From Actinospica robiniae DSM 44927 (GTDB lineage Bacteria > Actinomycetota > Actinomycetes > Streptomycetales > Catenulisporaceae): 64,000 nucleotides of DNA. Numbering within the stretch: the first letter of the stretch is position 1; the number at the start of each line of letters is the position of its first letter. The notes under the pieces were generated by a model that was given only the letters and a program-made list of their open reading frames with translations, ran no database searches and was not told the origin of the DNA. This document shows positions 2,694-55,665 of this stretch, in pieces. A program made the position numbers and the translations under genes. Location of the stretch: positions 1 through 64,000 of the forward strand of contig NZ_KI632511.1 in NCBI RefSeq assembly GCF_000504285.1, in the 5' to 3' direction.

Positions 2694-3012
2694 CAAGCGG
2701 CGCGATGCAAAATCGAGGCATCAACCCAAGCCACCGCCGCTTGACCTCCCGGCAGGTCCCTGATTTCCTCCGGGGACCGACCGAGGAGAGAGCACACCCC
2801 CGCAACCCCACCACCCCAAACCCCAACCCGCCCCACCAACAACAGCACCCACGCGAACCCGGCATCTCTCTCCGAGAGAAGGGCCTCCGCCGGAGGCGAG
2901 ATCTTGAAACTGCAACCCACCCCACCAACGTAACGGGTGGGCCGTGCCCCTATGTCTTCCGTCAAGTCTGGGCTGCTCGCTGTAACGGGCATGTGGGTGG
3001 GTGTTGCTCGGG

Positions 3013-4214
3013 TTATGTGGTGGCGGTGTGGGGCGTGTAGAGCGTGGCGTTGCGGAGCATGGCGTGGAGGACGTTGATGCGTCTGCGGGCGAGGCGGATG
3101 ATTGCTTGGGTGTGGGTTTTGCCTGCGGCGCGGTGTTTGTCGTAGTAGGCGCGGGAGTCGGGGTCGGCCAGGGCGGCGAAGGCGGAGAGGAACATGGCGC
3201 GTTTGAGCTGCCGGTTTCCGCGTCTGGGTGCGTGTTCGCCGCGGATGGAGCTGCCGGAGGACTTGGTGACCGGGGCAAGTCCTGCGTAGGAGGCGAGGTG
3301 GTCGGCGGTGGGGAAGGTGGCGGCGTCGCCGACGGTGGTCAGGATGGTCGCGGCGGTCCTGATCCCGATGCCGGGCATCGAGGTCAGGAGCGGGGAAAGA
3401 GGGTGGGCCTCCAGCAGGGCACTGAGCTGTCCCTCGAGCGTGCGGCGTTGGGCGAGGATCTCGGTCAGCTGGCGGGCGAGGGAGGGGATGGACGAGGGGC
3501 TGCGGCCCGGGTGCCGGGCACCACGACCGTCTGTTCTGCGAGGGCCTCGGCGATCTCCTCGGCCAGGCGCTCGGCCAGGCGCGGGGCCAGGGGTTTCAGG
3601 AGTTTGACGATGCGTCGGGTGCCGGCCTCGGCGAGCAGTTCAGGGGAGCCGTACCGGGCGAGTAGCGCGAGGACGGCCTGGTGCTGGATGCGTGGGCCCA
3701 GGACGCGTTCGAGGGAGGGGTGGATCTGGGTGAGCAGGCCGCGCAGCCGATTGGAGGTGCGGGTCGACTCGCCCGCGAGGTCCTGGTCGAACCCGACGAG
3801 CATGGCCAGTTCCGCCTCGGTCTCATCGAGCACGGTCAGGGTGCGCAGCGCCCTGGGTGCGGTGCGGGCGACGTCGGCGATCACGGCGGCGTCGCGGGCG
3901 TCGGTCTTGGCCTCGCCCTCGTAGAGGTCCGCGGCGCGGCGCATGGCCAGGCCGGGCAGGTAGGCGACCTGGCAGCCGACGTCGCGGGCGACGCTCAGCG
4001 GCAGCGCGCCGATGTTCGCGGGCTGATCGACGATCACCAGGACGGTGGCGAACTTCGCGATCAGCTTCTCGAACAGGGCGCGCAGTTTCGGTTCGGTGTT
4101 CGGCAGGCGCTTGTCGTAGACGGTCTTGCCGGCCGGGGTCAGCCCGTGGGCGTGGTGCTCGCCCTTGCCCACGTCCAGGCCGAGGAAGACCCCGATACCG
4201 CTGGTGTCGTACAC
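3013..4214 (-). pseudogene. IS110-family DEDD recombinase, frameshifted
   Basis: The GTG start at 4214 opens a RuvC-like DEDD domain (VFLGLDVGKGEHHAHG, then VIVDQPANIG and KTDARDAAVIAD). After about 235 residues the frame shifts: compared with 53143-54259, two extra G residues lie at about 3491 and within 3496-3499, giving a net +2. Translation would end at 3465. The C-terminal Transposase_20 part with the MPGIGIRTAATIL helix-hairpin-helix and the serine-rich KSSGSS active-site region continues out of frame in 3013-3378. The gene is otherwise nearly identical to the other copy, so inactivation looks recent. A sequencing error is possible but would need two nearby insertions. Confidence 0.88.
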
Positions 4215-4296
4215 GCTCGCCGCCTTCTACTTCGCATGGCCCTGGCCTCGACCATCGCACCGCAGCCGGCAACCACGTTACACAGGCCGCCCCGAG

Positions 4297-4320
4297 AAAA
4301 CGCCCGGCGTTGCGCCGGGC
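4297..4320 (-). terminator. Intrinsic terminator inside IS110 left end, copy 1
   Basis: An 8-bp perfect stem GCCCGGCG/CGCCGGGC with loop CAA, then GTTTTC on the minus strand. It lies between the element end and the recombinase start, so it would end a leader transcript before the coding region. Confidence 0.7.
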
Positions 4321-4468
4321 ACGGGATGCGGACCAGGCCCCTTATCAGCGGTCAGGCAGTGCTCCAAAACCCGGCGGCAACACGCCCAAGGCCATAGACA
4401 CGGCAGGGTGGCAGAGCCATACCGGGCCCGGAGGCCAGGCGCCCCCATTGCGGGGACACGTAAAAGGT
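4297..4468 (-). ncRNA. Candidate IS110 bridge RNA, copy 1
   Basis: In IS110-group elements a bridge RNA is transcribed from the non-coding left end upstream of the recombinase and guides target and donor recognition. Here that left end is 254 nt. It holds an intrinsic terminator (stem 4302-4309 with 4313-4320, followed on the transcribed strand by GTTTTC), so a transcript starting near the element end would be about 170 nt, close to the size known for IS621. It is GC-rich with several local stems. Transcription itself is inferred. Confidence 0.6.
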
Positions 4469-4595
4469 AACGGGTGGTCAGACGAACCAGGCGACGCGAA
4501 GCGGCCGCCCACACCACGACGACCACCCAACCGATCATCAACGCGCAGCAAATAGCCCGTCTGGCAGCGCCCGATGTTCCTCAGGGTCTCGGTGA

Positions 4596-32132: not shown

Positions 32133-32539
32133 GAGAACTTCCTCGCCGCCGCTACCGACTGCAGCCGAGCCACTGCGCCATCGACGATACGACACCGGAG
32201 CTCCGGGAGTAAGGGCGGGCGGGCCGCTTTAAAAAGATCCTGAACAATCCGAAGGGGACTCGAACGATGTCCGTTTCGCCCGTTTTAGCAGTGAATACCA
32301 TGACTTATTCACCAGTATCTTACCAACAGACGATGAGGCGGAACCCCATAAGGGACACCGGAACCCACACCGGCCACATCACCCTTTCCATCTCTTCCCC
32401 TCACAGACCGCATCGTTATTAAGCAGTTACTGCCCTGGCTCGCATATCGGAGCGCATTGCCTCTAAGGTTCCATTCAGTCGCTGCTGTCAAGTCGCGTAA
32501 ATACTCGACCGGCAGCGCAACCGCCGAATCCGCACCGGC

Positions 32540-32664
32540 CTTGACGTGCCCTCGCGGAGCCGGGGACCCAATCCCCTTGGGGTGAATCCGCGCCGTGCCG
32601 GCGCGGTAGGGCGACCTCTTACGCCCGAACCCGTCAGCTAACCCGGTAGGCGGGCGAAGAGGAA
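32540..32664 (+). promoter_or_regulatory. ydaO/yuaA c-di-AMP riboswitch
   Basis: The leader has the diagnostic elements GGGGTGAATCCGCG (32579-32592), GGTAGGGCGACCTCTTACGC (32605-32624) and the strongly conserved CCGTCAGCTAACCCGGTAGG (32631-32650), with CCTCTT at 32614-32619 pairing with AAGAGG at 32657-32662. This class binds cyclic di-AMP and in actinomycetes precedes cell-wall hydrolase genes. The ribosome-binding region (GGAAAGAG) lies right after it, so control at termination or translation of the next gene is expected. Limits are approximate. Confidence 0.92.
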
Positions 32665-32673
32665 AGAGCACGC

Positions 32674-51093: not shown

Positions 51094-51280
51094 CGCTCGG
51101 TCAGCCACGCGGGGCGGCGTTCACACGCTCTCCTCAAGAAATTTCCGGGAACGGCGAGAGGTTCTCAGGCGAATTGATGATCGGATAGGTGTTGGTGGGG
51201 TGTGGTGGCCTCTTGAGTCGGGGTGGTCGTCGGGGTGTGGGCGGCCGCTTCGCGTCGCCCGGTTTGTCTGACCACCCGTT

Positions 51281-51453
51281 ACCTTTTACGTGTCCCCGCA
51301 ATGGGGGCGCCTGGCCTCCGGGCCCGGTATGGCTCTGCCACCCTGCCGTGTCTATGGCCTTGGGCGTGTTGCCGCCGGGTTTTGGAGCACTGCCTGACCG
51401 CTGATAAGGGGCCTGGTCCGCATCCCGTGCCCGGCGCAACGCCGGGCGTTTTC
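51281..51453 (+). ncRNA. Candidate IS110 bridge RNA, copy 2
   Basis: About 173 nt between the element's left end and a perfect intrinsic terminator, upstream of the recombinase start at 51535. Position, length and strong secondary structure fit the bridge RNAs of IS110-group elements. The stretch TCTGCCACCC at 51334-51343 resembles the insertion target TCTGWCCACCC with one base missing, and could be part of a target-guide loop. Transcription and guide assignment are inferred. Confidence 0.6.
51429..51453 (+). terminator. Intrinsic terminator inside IS110 left end, copy 2
   Basis: Stem GCCCGGCG (51429-51436) with CGCCGGGC (51440-51447), loop CAA, then GTTTTC. It is one of the few hairpins in the window followed by a T-run. 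Confidence 0.75.
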
Positions 51454-51625
51454 TCGGGGCGGCCTGTGTAACGTGGTTGCCGGCTGCGGTGCGATGGTCG
51501 AGGCCAGGGCCATGCGAAGTAGAAGGCGGCGAGCGTGTACGACACCAGCGGTATCGGGGTCTTCCTCGGCCTGGACGTGGGCAAGGGCGAGCACCACGCC
51601 CACGGGCTGACCCCGGCCGGCAAGA

Positions 51626-53142
51626 GAGCGTGTCTAATGGAGTGTGTAAGCGGGTGACCTGTTGAGCAGCAGGTGGTAGTGCCTGGCTGCTAGAAATGGT
51701 GACACGCTGTGAGTGGCAAGAAGATGGACCAGGTGCTGTCGGTGGAGGCCGAGGAGCATCTGGTGGAGGAGCTCGAGCAGGTCGAGGGTGCCCGTCGGGT
51801 CGCTGCGATCCTGGCTCCGGAGGCGATCGACTCTCTGCTGGCCGAGGCCGAGAAGGCCGGGGGCGGGGCGCAGGAGCTGCTGGCTGCGATCACCAAGGCG
51901 GTGCTCGAGCGGGCGCTGCAGGTGGAGATGGCGGATCACCTCGGCTACGAGAAGGGGGATCCGGCCGGGGTCGGCTCGCCCAACTCGCGCAACGGCTCCT
52001 ACCCCAAGACCGTGGTCACCGCGTCCGGGCCGGTGCGCCTGCAGGTCCCGCGTGATCGGGCCGGCTCGTTCGAGCCGCGGATCGTGCCCAAGCGCACCAA
52101 GAGGCTCGGGCAGGTCGACGAGATGATCCTCTCGCTCTACGCCCGGGGGATGTCCACCCGCGACATCCGCGACCACCTCGCCGAGGTCTACGGCGCCGAG
52201 ATCTCCCCCGCGCTGGTCTCCAACGTGACCGAGGTGGTGCGCGAGGAGATCGCCGAATGGCAGAACCGCGCGCTCGACGCGGTGTATCCGATCCTTTACA
52301 TCGACGCGATCGTGGTGAAGGTCCGCGAGTCCGGCAGCGTCGTGAACAAGGCCGCGCACCTGGTGATCGGCGTGGACACCGACGGGTACAAGCAGGTGCT
52401 CGGCATCTGGATCGAGCAGAAGGAGGGCTCCCGGTTCTGGCTCAACGTCCTGACCTCCCTGCGCAACAGGGGCCTGAAAGACGCCCTCGTCGTGTGCTGC
52501 GACGGGCTGAGCGGGCTGCCCGAGGCGATCGGGCACGTATGGCCCGAGGCGATCGTGCAGACCTGCGTGGTCCACTTGATCCGCACCTCGATGCGGTATG
52601 TCGCCTACGCCGACCGCAAGAAGATCGCCGCCGCGCTGCGCCCGATCTACACCGCCGCGAACGCCTCGGCCGCCGAGGCCGCGCTCGAAGCGCTGCGCGG
52701 CACGTTCGCCCGCAGCGCACCCGGGGTGATCTCCGCATGGGAGCGGTCCTGGGAGACGTTCATACCGTTTCTCGACTTCCCCCTCGAGCTGCGACGGGTC
52801 ATCTACACGACCAACGCCATCGAGTCGATGAACTTCCAGCTCCGCAAAATCAGCAAGACCCGCGGGCACTTTCCCGACGACGACGCCGCGATCAAACTGC
52901 TCTACCTCGGCATCCGCCGCATCGAGGGCCGCCACATCGACGGCGAGGGCCGCCACGTGCCGGCCGGACAGCTACGCGGCACCGGAACCTACGGCTGGAA
53001 GCGGGCCCTGAACGACTTCGCGATCCGCTTCCCCGGCAAACTCCCGGTCTGACCAGCAAAACCGTCACCGACGGCAACCGCCGACGGAGACCCGAAGAAG
53101 GAAGAACCGTCCCCAAACTTACACACTCCAATTGACAAGCCC
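51626..53142 (+). mobile_element. IS256-family insertion sequence with 8-bp target duplication
   Basis: The ends, read inward, are GAGCGTGTCTAATGGAGTG and GGGCTTGTCAATTGGAGTG, continuing for 25 bp with four mismatches. The flanking direct repeat CGGCAAGA (51618-51625 and 53143-53150) is the target duplication; removing it and the element restores the IS110 reading frame seen in copy 1. Length 1517 bp. Confidence 0.95.
51709..53052 (+). CDS. IS256-family (mutator-type) transposase
   Basis: 447 residues from GTG 51709. Catalytic DDE residues of the mutator class are visible: Asp in YPILYIDAIVVKVRESG (about 200), Asp in LVVCCDGLSGLPEAI (about 265) and Glu in VIYTTNAIESMNFQLRK (about 372). Upstream region holds the zinc-less DNA-binding domain with YEKGDPAGVGSPNSRNG and the conserved RDRAGSFEPRIVPKR. 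The frame is intact within intact inverted repeats, so the element may be active. Confidence 0.95.
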   Translation: MSGKKMDQVLSVEAEEHLVEELEQVEGARRVAAILAPEAIDSLLAEAEKAGGGAQELLAAITKAVLERALQVEMADHLGYEKGDPAGVGSPNSRNGSYPKTVVTASGPVRLQVPRDRAGSFEPRIVPKRTKRLGQVDEMILSLYARGMSTRDIRDHLAEVYGAEISPALVSNVTEVVREEIAEWQNRALDAVYPILYIDAIVVKVRESGSVVNKAAHLVIGVDTDGYKQVLGIWIEQKEGSRFWLNVLTSLRNRGLKDALVVCCDGLSGLPEAIGHVWPEAIVQTCVVHLIRTSMRYVAYADRKKIAAALRPIYTAANASAAEAALEALRGTFARSAPGVISAWERSWETFIPFLDFPLELRRVIYTTNAIESMNFQLRKISKTRGHFPDDDAAIKLLYLGIRRIEGRHIDGEGRHVPAGQLRGTGTYGWKRALNDFAIRFPGKLPV

Positions 53143-54477
53143 CGGCAAGACCGTCTACGACAAGCGCCTGCCGAACACCGAACCGAAACTGCGCGCCCTG
53201 TTCGAGAAGCTGATCGCGAAGTTCGCCACCGTCCTGGTGATCGTCGATCAGCCCGCGAACATCGGCGCGCTGCCGCTGAGCGTCGCCCGCGACGTCGGCT
53301 GCCAGGTCGCCTACCTGCCCGGCCTGGCCATGCGCCGCGCCGCGGACCTCTACGAGGGCGAGGCCAAGACCGACGCCCGCGACGCCGCCGTGATCGCCGA
53401 CGTCGCCCGCACCGCACCCAGGGCGCTGCGCACCCTGACCGTGCTCGATGAGACCGAGGCGGAACTGGCCATGCTCGTCGGGTTCGACCAGGACCTCGCG
53501 GGCGAGTCGACCCGCACCTCCAATCGGCTGCGCGGCCTGCTCACCCAGATCCACCCCTCCCTCGAACGCGTCCTGGGCCCACGCATCCAGCACCAGGCCG
53601 TCCTCGCGCTACTCGCCCGGTACGGCTCCCCTGAACTGCTCGCCGAGGCCGGCACCCGACGCATCGTCAAACTCCTGAAACCCCTGGCCCCGCGCCTGGC
53701 CGAGCGCCTGGCCGAGGAGATCGCCGAGGCCCTCGCAGAACAGACGGTCGTGGTGCCCGGCACCCGGGCCGCAGCCCTCGTCATCCCCTCCCTCGCCCGC
53801 CAGCTGACCGAGATCCTCGCCCAACGCCGCACGCTCGAGGGACAGCTCAGTGCCCTGCTGGAGGCCCACCCTCTTTCCCCGCTCCTGACCTCGATGCCCG
53901 GCATCGGGATCAGGACCGCCGCGACCATCCTGACCACCGTCGGCGACGCCGCCACCTTCCCCACCGCCGACCACCTCGCCTCCTACGCAGGACTTGCCCC
54001 GGTCACCAAGTCCTCCGGCAGCTCCATCCGCGGCGAACACGCACCCAGACGCGGAAACCGGCAGCTCAAACGCGCCATGTTCCTCTCCGCCTTCGCCGCC
54101 CTGGCCGACCCCGACTCCCGCGCCTACTACGACAAACACCGCGCCGCAGGCAAAACCCACACCCAAGCAATCATCCGCCTCGCCCGCAGACGCATCAACG
54201 TCCTCCACGCCATGCTCCGCAACGCCACGCTCTACACGCCCCACACCGCCACCACATAACCCGAGCAACACCCACCCACATGCCCGTTACAGCGAGCAGC
54301 CCAGACTTGACGGAAGACATAGGGGCACGCCCACCCGTTGCGTCGCGGGGCGGGCTGGGGTTTCAAGATTCCGCCTCCGGCGCGGGCCCTTCTCTCGGAG
54401 AGAGATGCCGGGGTTTGTGGGGTGCTGGCGTTGGCGGGGCGGGCTGGGGTTCGGGGTGGTCGGGTGCCGGGGGCGTG

Positions 54478-54625
54478 CTCTCTCCTCGGCCGGGCCCCGG
54501 AGGCAATCAGGAACCTGCCGGGAGGTCAAGCGGCGGAGGCTTCCGCTCATGCTCGATCTTGCATCGCGCCGCTTGACCTCCCGGCAGAACCCTGACCGGG
54601 CTTCGCCTGCCCGACCGAGGAGAGA
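54478..54625. repeat. Large imperfect palindrome (composite-repeat hairpin, copy c)
   Basis: Same arms as the hairpin at 97-244, including nearly the same loop with TTCCGCTCATGCTCGATCTT. Left arm CTCTCCTCGGCC to GGTCAAGCGGCG, right arm CGCCGCTTGACC to CCGAGGAGAG. Uninterrupted. Confidence 0.9.
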
Positions 54626-55271
54626 ACCCACCCCCTGAGGGAGCAGTGCGAGCTGCGCTCGGGCCCGGGTCCCGTCCCGCAGCCCGGCCGCGCTCGACGC
54701 GGAAGAATCCTGCATCACCTTGATCCGAGCGTCCCGATTCCCGATCCGTGCAAAGGGTCGGTGGTCCGATCGCGCTTGATGTCGGATCCTGCATCGCCCT
54801 CATGCTGTCGATCCCGATCCCAGACCCCGCGGCAGAATCCCGCAGGCCGGTCGCGTTCGGCGCGGAAGAATCCTGCATCGCCCTGATCCAATCCACCCCG
54901 TGCTCATTCGGTCGGCGGGATCGCCTGGCCCTGTCGCACTCCGAGGGGTATTCCTGCACCGTTCTCGGCCATGCCCCTGACGCCGTCCGCGCAGCCATCC
55001 CGCCCACCACCCCTCCCGTCGCAAGCCCCGATCCCCCGTACTCTTCCATGGTAGACGCCACTACCGACAAAAGCCGCGTATCCGGCTTTCACCGGATAAG
55101 CAAAAATACTGGAGATTTCCGGGCACTCGAGCGCGCTCCCCGGCGTTGAACGAGTAGTAGAGAAGAGAGCGGCCCAGAACGGTGATGCAGGATTCTTCCG
55201 GATCGAGCGCGACCGGGCCACGGGACAGGACTCGGCCCGAGCGCAGCTCAGACCCCTCCCCAGGGGGCGGG
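54626..55271. other. Interior of right composite repeat; no convincing gene
   Basis: Matches 245-1031 in inverted order. The GGAAGAATCCTGCATC module occurs near 54700, 54786 and 54866 on this strand and once inverted near 55185. The block with CTTCCATGGTAGACGCC and ACCGACAAAAGCCGCG at 55043-55073 is the counterpart of 519-547. Open frames across it are not conserved between copies. Confidence 0.7.
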
Positions 55272-55420
55272 CTCTCTCCTCGGTCGGGCAGGCGAAGCCC
55301 GATCAGGGTTCTGCCGGGAGGTCAAGCGGCGCGATGCACAATCCACCATCAGCGGAAACCACCGCCGCTTGACCTCCCGGCAGGTCCCTGATTGCCTCCG
55401 GGGACCGACCGAGGAGAGAG
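55272..55420. repeat. Large imperfect palindrome (composite-repeat hairpin, copy d)
   Basis: Intact version of the hairpin that is split by the IS4-like element at 1088-2693. The arms are at about 55272-55331 and 55362-55420, with loop GATGCACAATCCACCATC. It supplies the uninterrupted reference for the 5-bp target duplication of that IS. Confidence 0.9.
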
Positions 55421-55560
55421 CACACCCCCGCAACCCCACCACCCCCAACCCCAGCCCGCCCTCCCAACGACAGCACCCACACGAACCCGGCATTCTCTCC
55501 GAGGGAAGGGCCTGCCAGCGGCGCTTTTCGTCTTGAAACCGCAGCTCGCCCTGCCAGCGC

Positions 55561-55569
55561 AACGGGTGG
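55561..55569. other. Unoccupied IS110 target site in composite-repeat tail
   Basis: CAGCGCAACGGGTGGACAG here corresponds to the two occupied sites at 2932/4477 and 51272/54339, where AACGGGTGG appears on both sides of the IS110 elements. The neighbouring GAACCGGGCGACGCGAAGCG also follows the occupied copies, which shows the sites are equivalent. Confidence 0.85.
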
Positions 55570-55665
55570 ACAGAAGAACCGGGCGACGCGAAGCGGCCGC
55601 CCACACCCCGACCCGACAGACCACCACGCCCACGAGCACTCAACCGATCATCAACTCGCATTAAG

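Follow-up and report, generated by a model that had tools for sequence, protein, structure and literature searches.

The left end of an IS110 element in the genome of Actinospica robiniae DSM 44927 raises the question of whether the non-coding DNA ahead of the recombinase gene encodes an RNA that chooses the insertion site of the element and, if so, where that RNA ends. The window referred to below is the whole 64,000-nt stretch of DNA that was analyzed, and it carries two copies of the element. The original prediction placed a candidate bridge RNA in this left end and had it stop at an intrinsic terminator. Judging from comparison with the left ends of relatives, it is very probable that the left end, which we find to be 258 nt long, encodes a bridge RNA.

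Element copies and the target site

The recombinase identifies the element as a member of IS110: both the PF01548 and PF02371 domains were matched, an intact copy is named "IS110 family RNA-guided transposase" by NF033542 (NCBIfam) with a score above the cut-off, and the closest two solved relatives found for the protein are IS621 and ISCro4. The gene is flanked by 258 nt before and 68 nt after (measured in copy L015), giving a long non-coding left end and a short right end. In the window, the left ends of the two copies show 100% identity across the 269 nt that were compared, and both recombinase genes are broken, that of copy 2 by an IS256-family insertion and that of copy 1 by a frame break; intact 399-aa recombinase copies are present elsewhere in the genome. 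The element and its surroundings are laid out as follows.

2943–4472, minus strand: copy 1 of the IS110 element, with its left end at 4215–4472 and the recombinase frame broken
51174–55654, no strand assigned: host palindromic repeat split by the element, with ends TTGATGATCGG / CCGATCATCAA
51277–51278, plus strand: left core CG, the true left edge of the element and the last bases common to target, left junction, and donor, from ten own copies versus empty sites
51535–54259, plus strand: recombinase gene of copy 2, interrupted, with PF01548 and PF02371 on 53132–54259
51617–53150, plus strand: IS256-family insertion in copy 2, with the 9-bp repeat CCGGCAAGA on both sides and a transposase at 51709–53052 (PF00872)
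54307–54329, plus strand: right end, with -35-like TTGACG at 54307–54312, left donor AGGGGCA at 54321–54327, and core CG at 54328–54329

Comparison of ten copies with empty sites gives a target of CCACC-CG-CCCA, a left junction of CCACC-CG-TTACC, and a right junction of GGGGCA-CG-CCCA; CCC, an earlier candidate for the letters shared by the junctions, was rejected because the empty sites gave CG. The left end had been put at 254 nt, and while it is indeed non-coding, its edge lies 4 nt further left, at the core CG, and with a GTG start at 51535 this yields the 258 nt. A DNA search of the 9.92-Mb genome (one contig) matched the left end at 12 places, 10 of which have both element ends, and a covariance model built for this analysis recovered the identical 12 sites (150 of 16024 first candidates scored). 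All 10 complete copies are inserted at one point of a ~1.5-kb palindromic repeat, within its ends, and the joined sites read CCACCCGCCCA in nine of them, window copy 1 having one extra G; the anatomy of the element and its site specificity are plain at the sequence level. Of the 166 ends of the repeat, 100 were listed; 49 of the 94 that are empty carry a perfect site, versus 9 of 10 joined occupied sites, a contrast that is suggestive only, because the copies are not all independent, L019 and L020 having common flanks. The joined sequence shows no enrichment in the genome (88 occurrences versus 117 for the reversed control).

The host repeat consists of nested inverted repeats marked by GGGCGGCCGCTTCGCGTCGCCC, and an unsplit copy lies at L027:1422-2954. 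At three or fewer mismatches, the motif occurs 166 times in the genome versus 7 for the reversed control, which points to roughly 80 copies of the repeat. A 501-nt stretch of it has at least 91 matches in its own genome (40 candidates scored; best E 4e-263), and each of 13 further family genomes has 0–7 weaker matches to it (best E 3e-26). A coding or autonomous form of the repeat was sought among five longer copies and rejected, since the two tested contain other transposases instead, with PF13006/PF01609 in one (L234) and PF05598 in the other (L235).

The intact 399-aa gene is present in five copies outside the window (L015 and L018–L021), among which 1526 nt are identical, which suggests recent spread, whereas the host repeats surrounding the IS110 copies mostly differ by roughly 10–20%; L022 and window copy 1 differ in length through small insertions. 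This identity of intact copies, together with the match of the guides to target and donor described below, makes it scarcely credible that the left end is functionless and degraded and that the ten copies spread via duplication of the host repeat, an account with which the broken state of both window copies and the common flanks of L019 and L020 would be in keeping.

The IS256-family insertion of window copy 2 (L016) is also present in L014, with 3 mismatches over 3051 nt, and these two IS110 copies occupy different sites, so that the element together with its insertion may have been mobile as one piece, or gene conversion may have copied it. The insertion in L013 is of equal length and diverges from offset 330 on, and a single insertion common to three IS110 copies was rejected, as it is common to only two.

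Covarying structure and guide sequences

A scan of species genomes yielded 286 relatives, the best 80 of which were kept, and further ones came from the order, in which 162 of 391 genomes matched and 39 stretches were taken; 7 of the 122 loci gave no protein match. The alignment comprises 49 of 66 de-duplicated left ends, with L196 (28% identity) excluded. In the RNAalifold consensus, a 5' stem-loop is accompanied by two internal-loop arms, one for the target and one for the donor, both of which are enclosed by an outer helix, and with the guides assigned by the rule for IS621 in passages of PMC11208160, the proposed RNA is arranged as follows.

51291–51508, plus strand: proposed bridge RNA of ~218 nt, both ends inferred, from the covarying structure and, for the start, from the position of the -10
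51292–51309, plus strand: 5' stem-loop (helix 1, 95.9% of cells paired)
51310–51316, plus strand: outer closing helix, 5' strand CCTGGCC (helix 2)
51317–51385, plus strand: target-binding arm (helices 3 and 4, 98% of cells paired)
51338–51343, plus strand: left target guide CCACCC, which has the letters of the left target's top strand, CCACC-C, in ten copies
51361–51366, plus strand: right target guide TGGGCG (RNA UGGGCG), complement of the right target CGCCCA
51388–51491, plus strand: donor-binding arm (helix 5, 96.3% of cells paired)
51407–51412, plus strand: left donor guide AGGGGC, with the same letters as right-end AGGGGCA at 54321–54327
51468–51473, plus strand: right donor guide GTAACG (RNA GUAACG), complement of CGTTAC at the left edge, with donor covariation in 91 elements
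51502–51508, plus strand: outer closing helix, 3' strand GGCCAGG (pairing partner in helix 2)

Across the 49 left ends, 97.2% of the pair cells are paired and 21 of the 34 pairs show two-sided changes. The covariation score is 0.413, as opposed to 0.273 for shuffled alignments and 0.06–0.10 for slid controls, although the structure was scored on the alignment from which it came, which gives it an advantage over the slid versions. The outer helix alone scores 0.284 (0.148 shuffled, 0.016–0.099 slid), and its count of three pairs with two-sided changes was reached in 111 of 500 shuffles. As a single sequence, the window RNA folds no more stably than its shuffles (z +0.70), and its minimum-energy fold differs from the consensus structure; single-sequence folds were thus uninformative. 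At the Rfam gathering threshold, nothing in the window was matched at the left end, the sole match being a ydaO (c-di-AMP) riboswitch elsewhere, at 32512–32668 (88.9 bits). The original prediction had named the lack of a covarying two-loop structure across homologous left ends as one ground for its refutation; such a structure was found, and its target and donor loops covary in turn with the DNA, so that the proposal of a bridge RNA in the left end is supported.

An edge was recognized in 94 left ends, in 39 of which the right guide and right target could also be read. For the right target guide, 117 of 161 positions match across 23 distinct pairs, a number reached in none of 20000 permutations (mean 75.8, maximum 107), and with the poly-C guides left out, the remaining 10 pairs match at 50 of 70 positions (mean 32.4; 3 of 20000 permutations); the right donor guide matches its donor at 545 of 637 positions (mean 486.4 and maximum 505 in 5000 shuffles; n=91), and all of these permutation figures are optimistic because the sequences are related. 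The right donor guide tracks the donor end in three sequence classes, as is seen at its second base, where guide and donor are G-G in 65 elements, A-A in 23, and mismatched in 3, and at its sixth base (C-C 72, T-T 16, mismatched 3; n=91 for both). Among the target guides, CGAAAAGG is paired with target CCTTTTCG in L126, L129, L130, and L131, and CTTGTGTG with CACATAAG in L167 at seven of eight positions. The left target guide fits its target and varies little, so it adds less, and the left donor guide is nearly invariant and therefore affords no covariation test. Guide and right target do not agree in L088, L112, and L134, the last under either reading of the guide, and L023, a partial copy in this genome, has the same guides yet a left flank without CCACC.

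The right flanks of L088 and L112 begin CGTTACC, which resembles the element's own left edge and runs against the guide prediction; donor-donor events were considered for the two and rejected, as their left flanks do not fit. Directly 3' of the right target guide, a UG at window positions 51367–51368 could pair with the CA of donor GGGGCA, a tentative pairing, as both are nearly invariant, that would resemble the handshake bases described for IS621.

A sister element in the same genome, L024, provides a close comparison, as its left end is 89% identical and its guides are for poly-C. Its right target CCCCCCAG agrees with its own right guide at 6 of 8 positions in strict register and at 8 of 8 with one G bulged. 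Between the two left ends, 9 of 19 nt differ in the target guides versus 24 of 221 in the remainder (p = 2e-4, with gap columns included), and on this sequence evidence natural retargeting within one genome appears clear. The left end lies immediately upstream of the start codon, as would suit a mere structured 5' leader that regulates translation of the recombinase while the protein chooses the site. The guide letters, however, vary in step with those of target and donor, and so similar a sister differs in both guides and target, which makes such a leader very unlikely in comparison with a bridge RNA.

The hairpin and its probable place in the donor arm

It had been claimed that the left end contains a perfect 8-bp stem, a CAA loop, and a T-run, kept in both copies, and these are present: a stem GCCCGGCG (51429–51436), the loop CAA, and a stem CGCCGGGC (51440–51447) are followed by G, TTTT (51449–51452), and C, the T-run being of four T, and the hairpin is identical in the two window copies. 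Their reading as a terminator that ends an RNA of ~173 nt (51281–51453) is not supported, since a conserved guide, stem, and outer helix lie downstream and the hairpin is kept without the T-run. Two features describe the region.

51429–51452, plus strand: the reported hairpin (51429–51447) and T-run TTTT (51449–51452), read as the donor-arm apical stem and not a terminator, from fold, alignment, and scan
51418–51462, plus strand: donor-arm apical stem-loop, in which CCGCaUCCCG (51418–51427) pairs with CGGGGCGG (51455–51462), from the segment fold and 19 aligned long-form arms

The hairpin lies between the two donor guides, and its T-run falls in an internal loop of the longer stem formed by 51418–51427 with 51455–51462. 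Downstream of the T-run, the right donor guide starts after 16 nt and the outer helix ends after 56 nt, and the donor-arm stem runs to 51491. Among 19 distinct long-form donor arms (25 before removal of duplicates), chosen for their length and for containing CGCAA, with L166 added, compensatory changes preserve the hairpin, one pair being C-G, U-A, or U-G, and TTTT follows it in this element only. The T-run is likewise absent in two relatives outside the 19 arms (L165 and L167), and the sister element retains the hairpin but has GTTACC in place of GTTTTC. TTTT is found between the donor guides in 5 of 91 parsed left ends (2 of 93 could not be parsed), and in the other four it forms the apical loop of a shorter hairpin and does not follow one. 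A consensus terminator scan did not list the hairpin, and in a 20-kb block it gave 6 sites versus a shuffled mean of 6.1.

These observations render it unlikely that the bridge RNA ends at an intrinsic terminator at 51429–51452 that separates it from the recombinase mRNA, or, in a variant of the same idea, that a leaky terminator yields some short, seekRNA-like RNA with the target guides only: the right donor guide, donor-arm stem, and outer helix that covary are all downstream, the T-run is missing in relatives that keep the hairpin, the sister included, and the four T are enclosed by a further stem. Termination at this point would accord with the presence of the hairpin and four T in the left ends of all ten complete copies, with the slightly better folding of the 173-nt form than of its shuffles (z -1.25; 14 of 200 as stable), and with the short processed RNAs with target guides reported for IS110 and IS1111 types in passages of PMC11187229. 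From the sequence comparison, it is more likely that the hairpin is part of the bridge RNA, in its donor arm, than that it marks the RNA's end. What looks like a hairpin with a T-run in the left end of an IS110 element can thus belong to a donor-arm stem, and truncation at such a point would lose the right donor guide.

Proposed circle junction, core overlap, and known systems

One further feature bears on where the RNA would start.

51279–51284, plus strand: -10-like hexamer TTACCT, completed by right-end TTGACG only in the circle, with 17-nt spacing in 42 of 42 joined ends

Joining the ends places TTGAC 17 nt before TTA in all 42 elements with both ends, a spacing that assumes one donor C and with which the junctions of this genome agree, and the -10 fits the consensus poorly. 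With 51284 as the last base of the hexamer, we propose a start at ~51291. In the mechanism that we propose, and in which we have high confidence as a whole, the left end would encode an IS110-type bridge RNA of ~218 nt (about 51291–51508) that is transcribed upon excision of the element as a circle, because only there does the right-end -35 meet the left-end -10. The first arm would pair with both target strands through the left guide CCACCC and the right guide UGGGCG, the second would pair with the element's own joined ends through AGGGGC and GUAACG, and the 8-bp CAA hairpin would be the apical stem of this donor arm and not a terminator. The recombinase would bind the RNA and catalyze joining of the circle into CCACC-CG-CCCA in the ends of the ~1.5-kb palindromic repeat; we infer transcription, circle formation, RNA binding, and catalysis alike from this arrangement.

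In 35 of 38 elements, the target has as its second core base the one that the right guide predicts (C 30 times, T three times, A in L167, and G in this element), but it agrees there with the second base of the donor in 3 of 38 (L203, a duplicate of L133, was dropped from the count). As this base follows the guide and rarely the donor, donor and target seem to overlap by a single base (C), as opposed to the shared CT of IS621. In this element, donor and target core are both CG, and poly-C flanks leave the rows of most relatives ambiguous; the clear rows are those with T and A targets, together with an empty site in the genome of L102 that has five C and fits one donor C. Another empty site, from the L130 genome, has four C.

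In the recombinase (L015:1268-2467), D14, D105, and D108 are conserved, and the Glu position of the DEDD motif appears, from residue spacing against the published IS621 numbers, to be Asp63 in 103 of 104 sequences; the Ser of the C-terminal domain, S319, is conserved in 104 of 104 and aligns with SGSSVRG of IS621. Among nine relatives with A-rich right guides, six (L102, L105, L119, L129, L130, and L131) are inserted in DDE_Tnp_1 genes, their left flank encoding part of such a transposase (PF01609), and the flanks of the other three gave no match. These transposases we take to be IS5-type. The flanks suggest that these relatives aim at other transposase genes, as is published for ISEc21 in passages of PMC11187229.

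Bridge RNAs, the natural redirection of IS110 elements, and REP targeting have already been published (passages of PMC11208160, PMC11208158, PMC11187229, and PMC1525189). According to passages of PMC11208160 and PMC11208158, the IS621 bridge RNA is 177 nt long, with a CT core and a right target guide of 4 nt. In both systems the RNA, known or proposed, lies in the left end upstream of the recombinase and has a 5' stem-loop, a target arm, and a donor arm, the 5' guide corresponds to the bottom strand and the 3' guide to the top strand, and a conserved Ser stands within a matching SGSSxRG stretch; the promoter that IS621 rebuilds across its circle junction may have a counterpart here, to judge from the sequence pattern. 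Unlike the RNA described for IS621, the one proposed here is ~218 nt long with an outer helix closing over both arms, its right target guide is 6–8 nt, the overlap of donor and target is CG, and seemingly only C in most relatives, and the 399-aa recombinase appears to have Asp in place of the DEDD Glu. The seekRNA of ISEc21 and ISMch6, reported as 74 nt in passages of PMC11187229, shares with this element the non-coding region upstream, a bottom-strand match that precedes the top-strand match, a relative retargeted through guide changes, and a transposase gene as target (here in relatives), whereas the conserved structure here spans ~218 nt. Like the REP-targeting ISPa11, ISPpu9, ISPpu10, and ISRm19 as described in passages of PMC1525189, this element has all its complete copies in a genome at a single position within an abundant palindromic repeat, which is a ~1.5-kb compound palindrome here and a short REP there. 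In the literature searched on Actinospica transposases, Streptomyces bridge RNA, and IS110/bridge RNA, no description of this branch appeared among the matches listed, and published predictions may already include it.

The outer helix and the one-base overlap may be a variant of known bridge RNA systems. A wider reading, which could as easily prove wrong as right, is that these elements form an actinobacterial IS110 branch whose bridge RNA has an extra helix over both arms and whose overlap is one base (C), with the target guide alone setting the other core base, and that here a poly-C form, still present as the sister, was retargeted by changes in its guides to a repeat that has expanded in this lineage, and afterwards gave rise to about ten copies. 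If the one-base overlap is true, such elements would be less constrained in their choice of target than under a fixed CT core. Natural retargeting can, on the sequence evidence, be followed inside one genome, and a probable bridge RNA from a GC-rich actinobacterium, for which the four guides, the exact element ends, and many natural targets are all at hand, makes the system directly testable.
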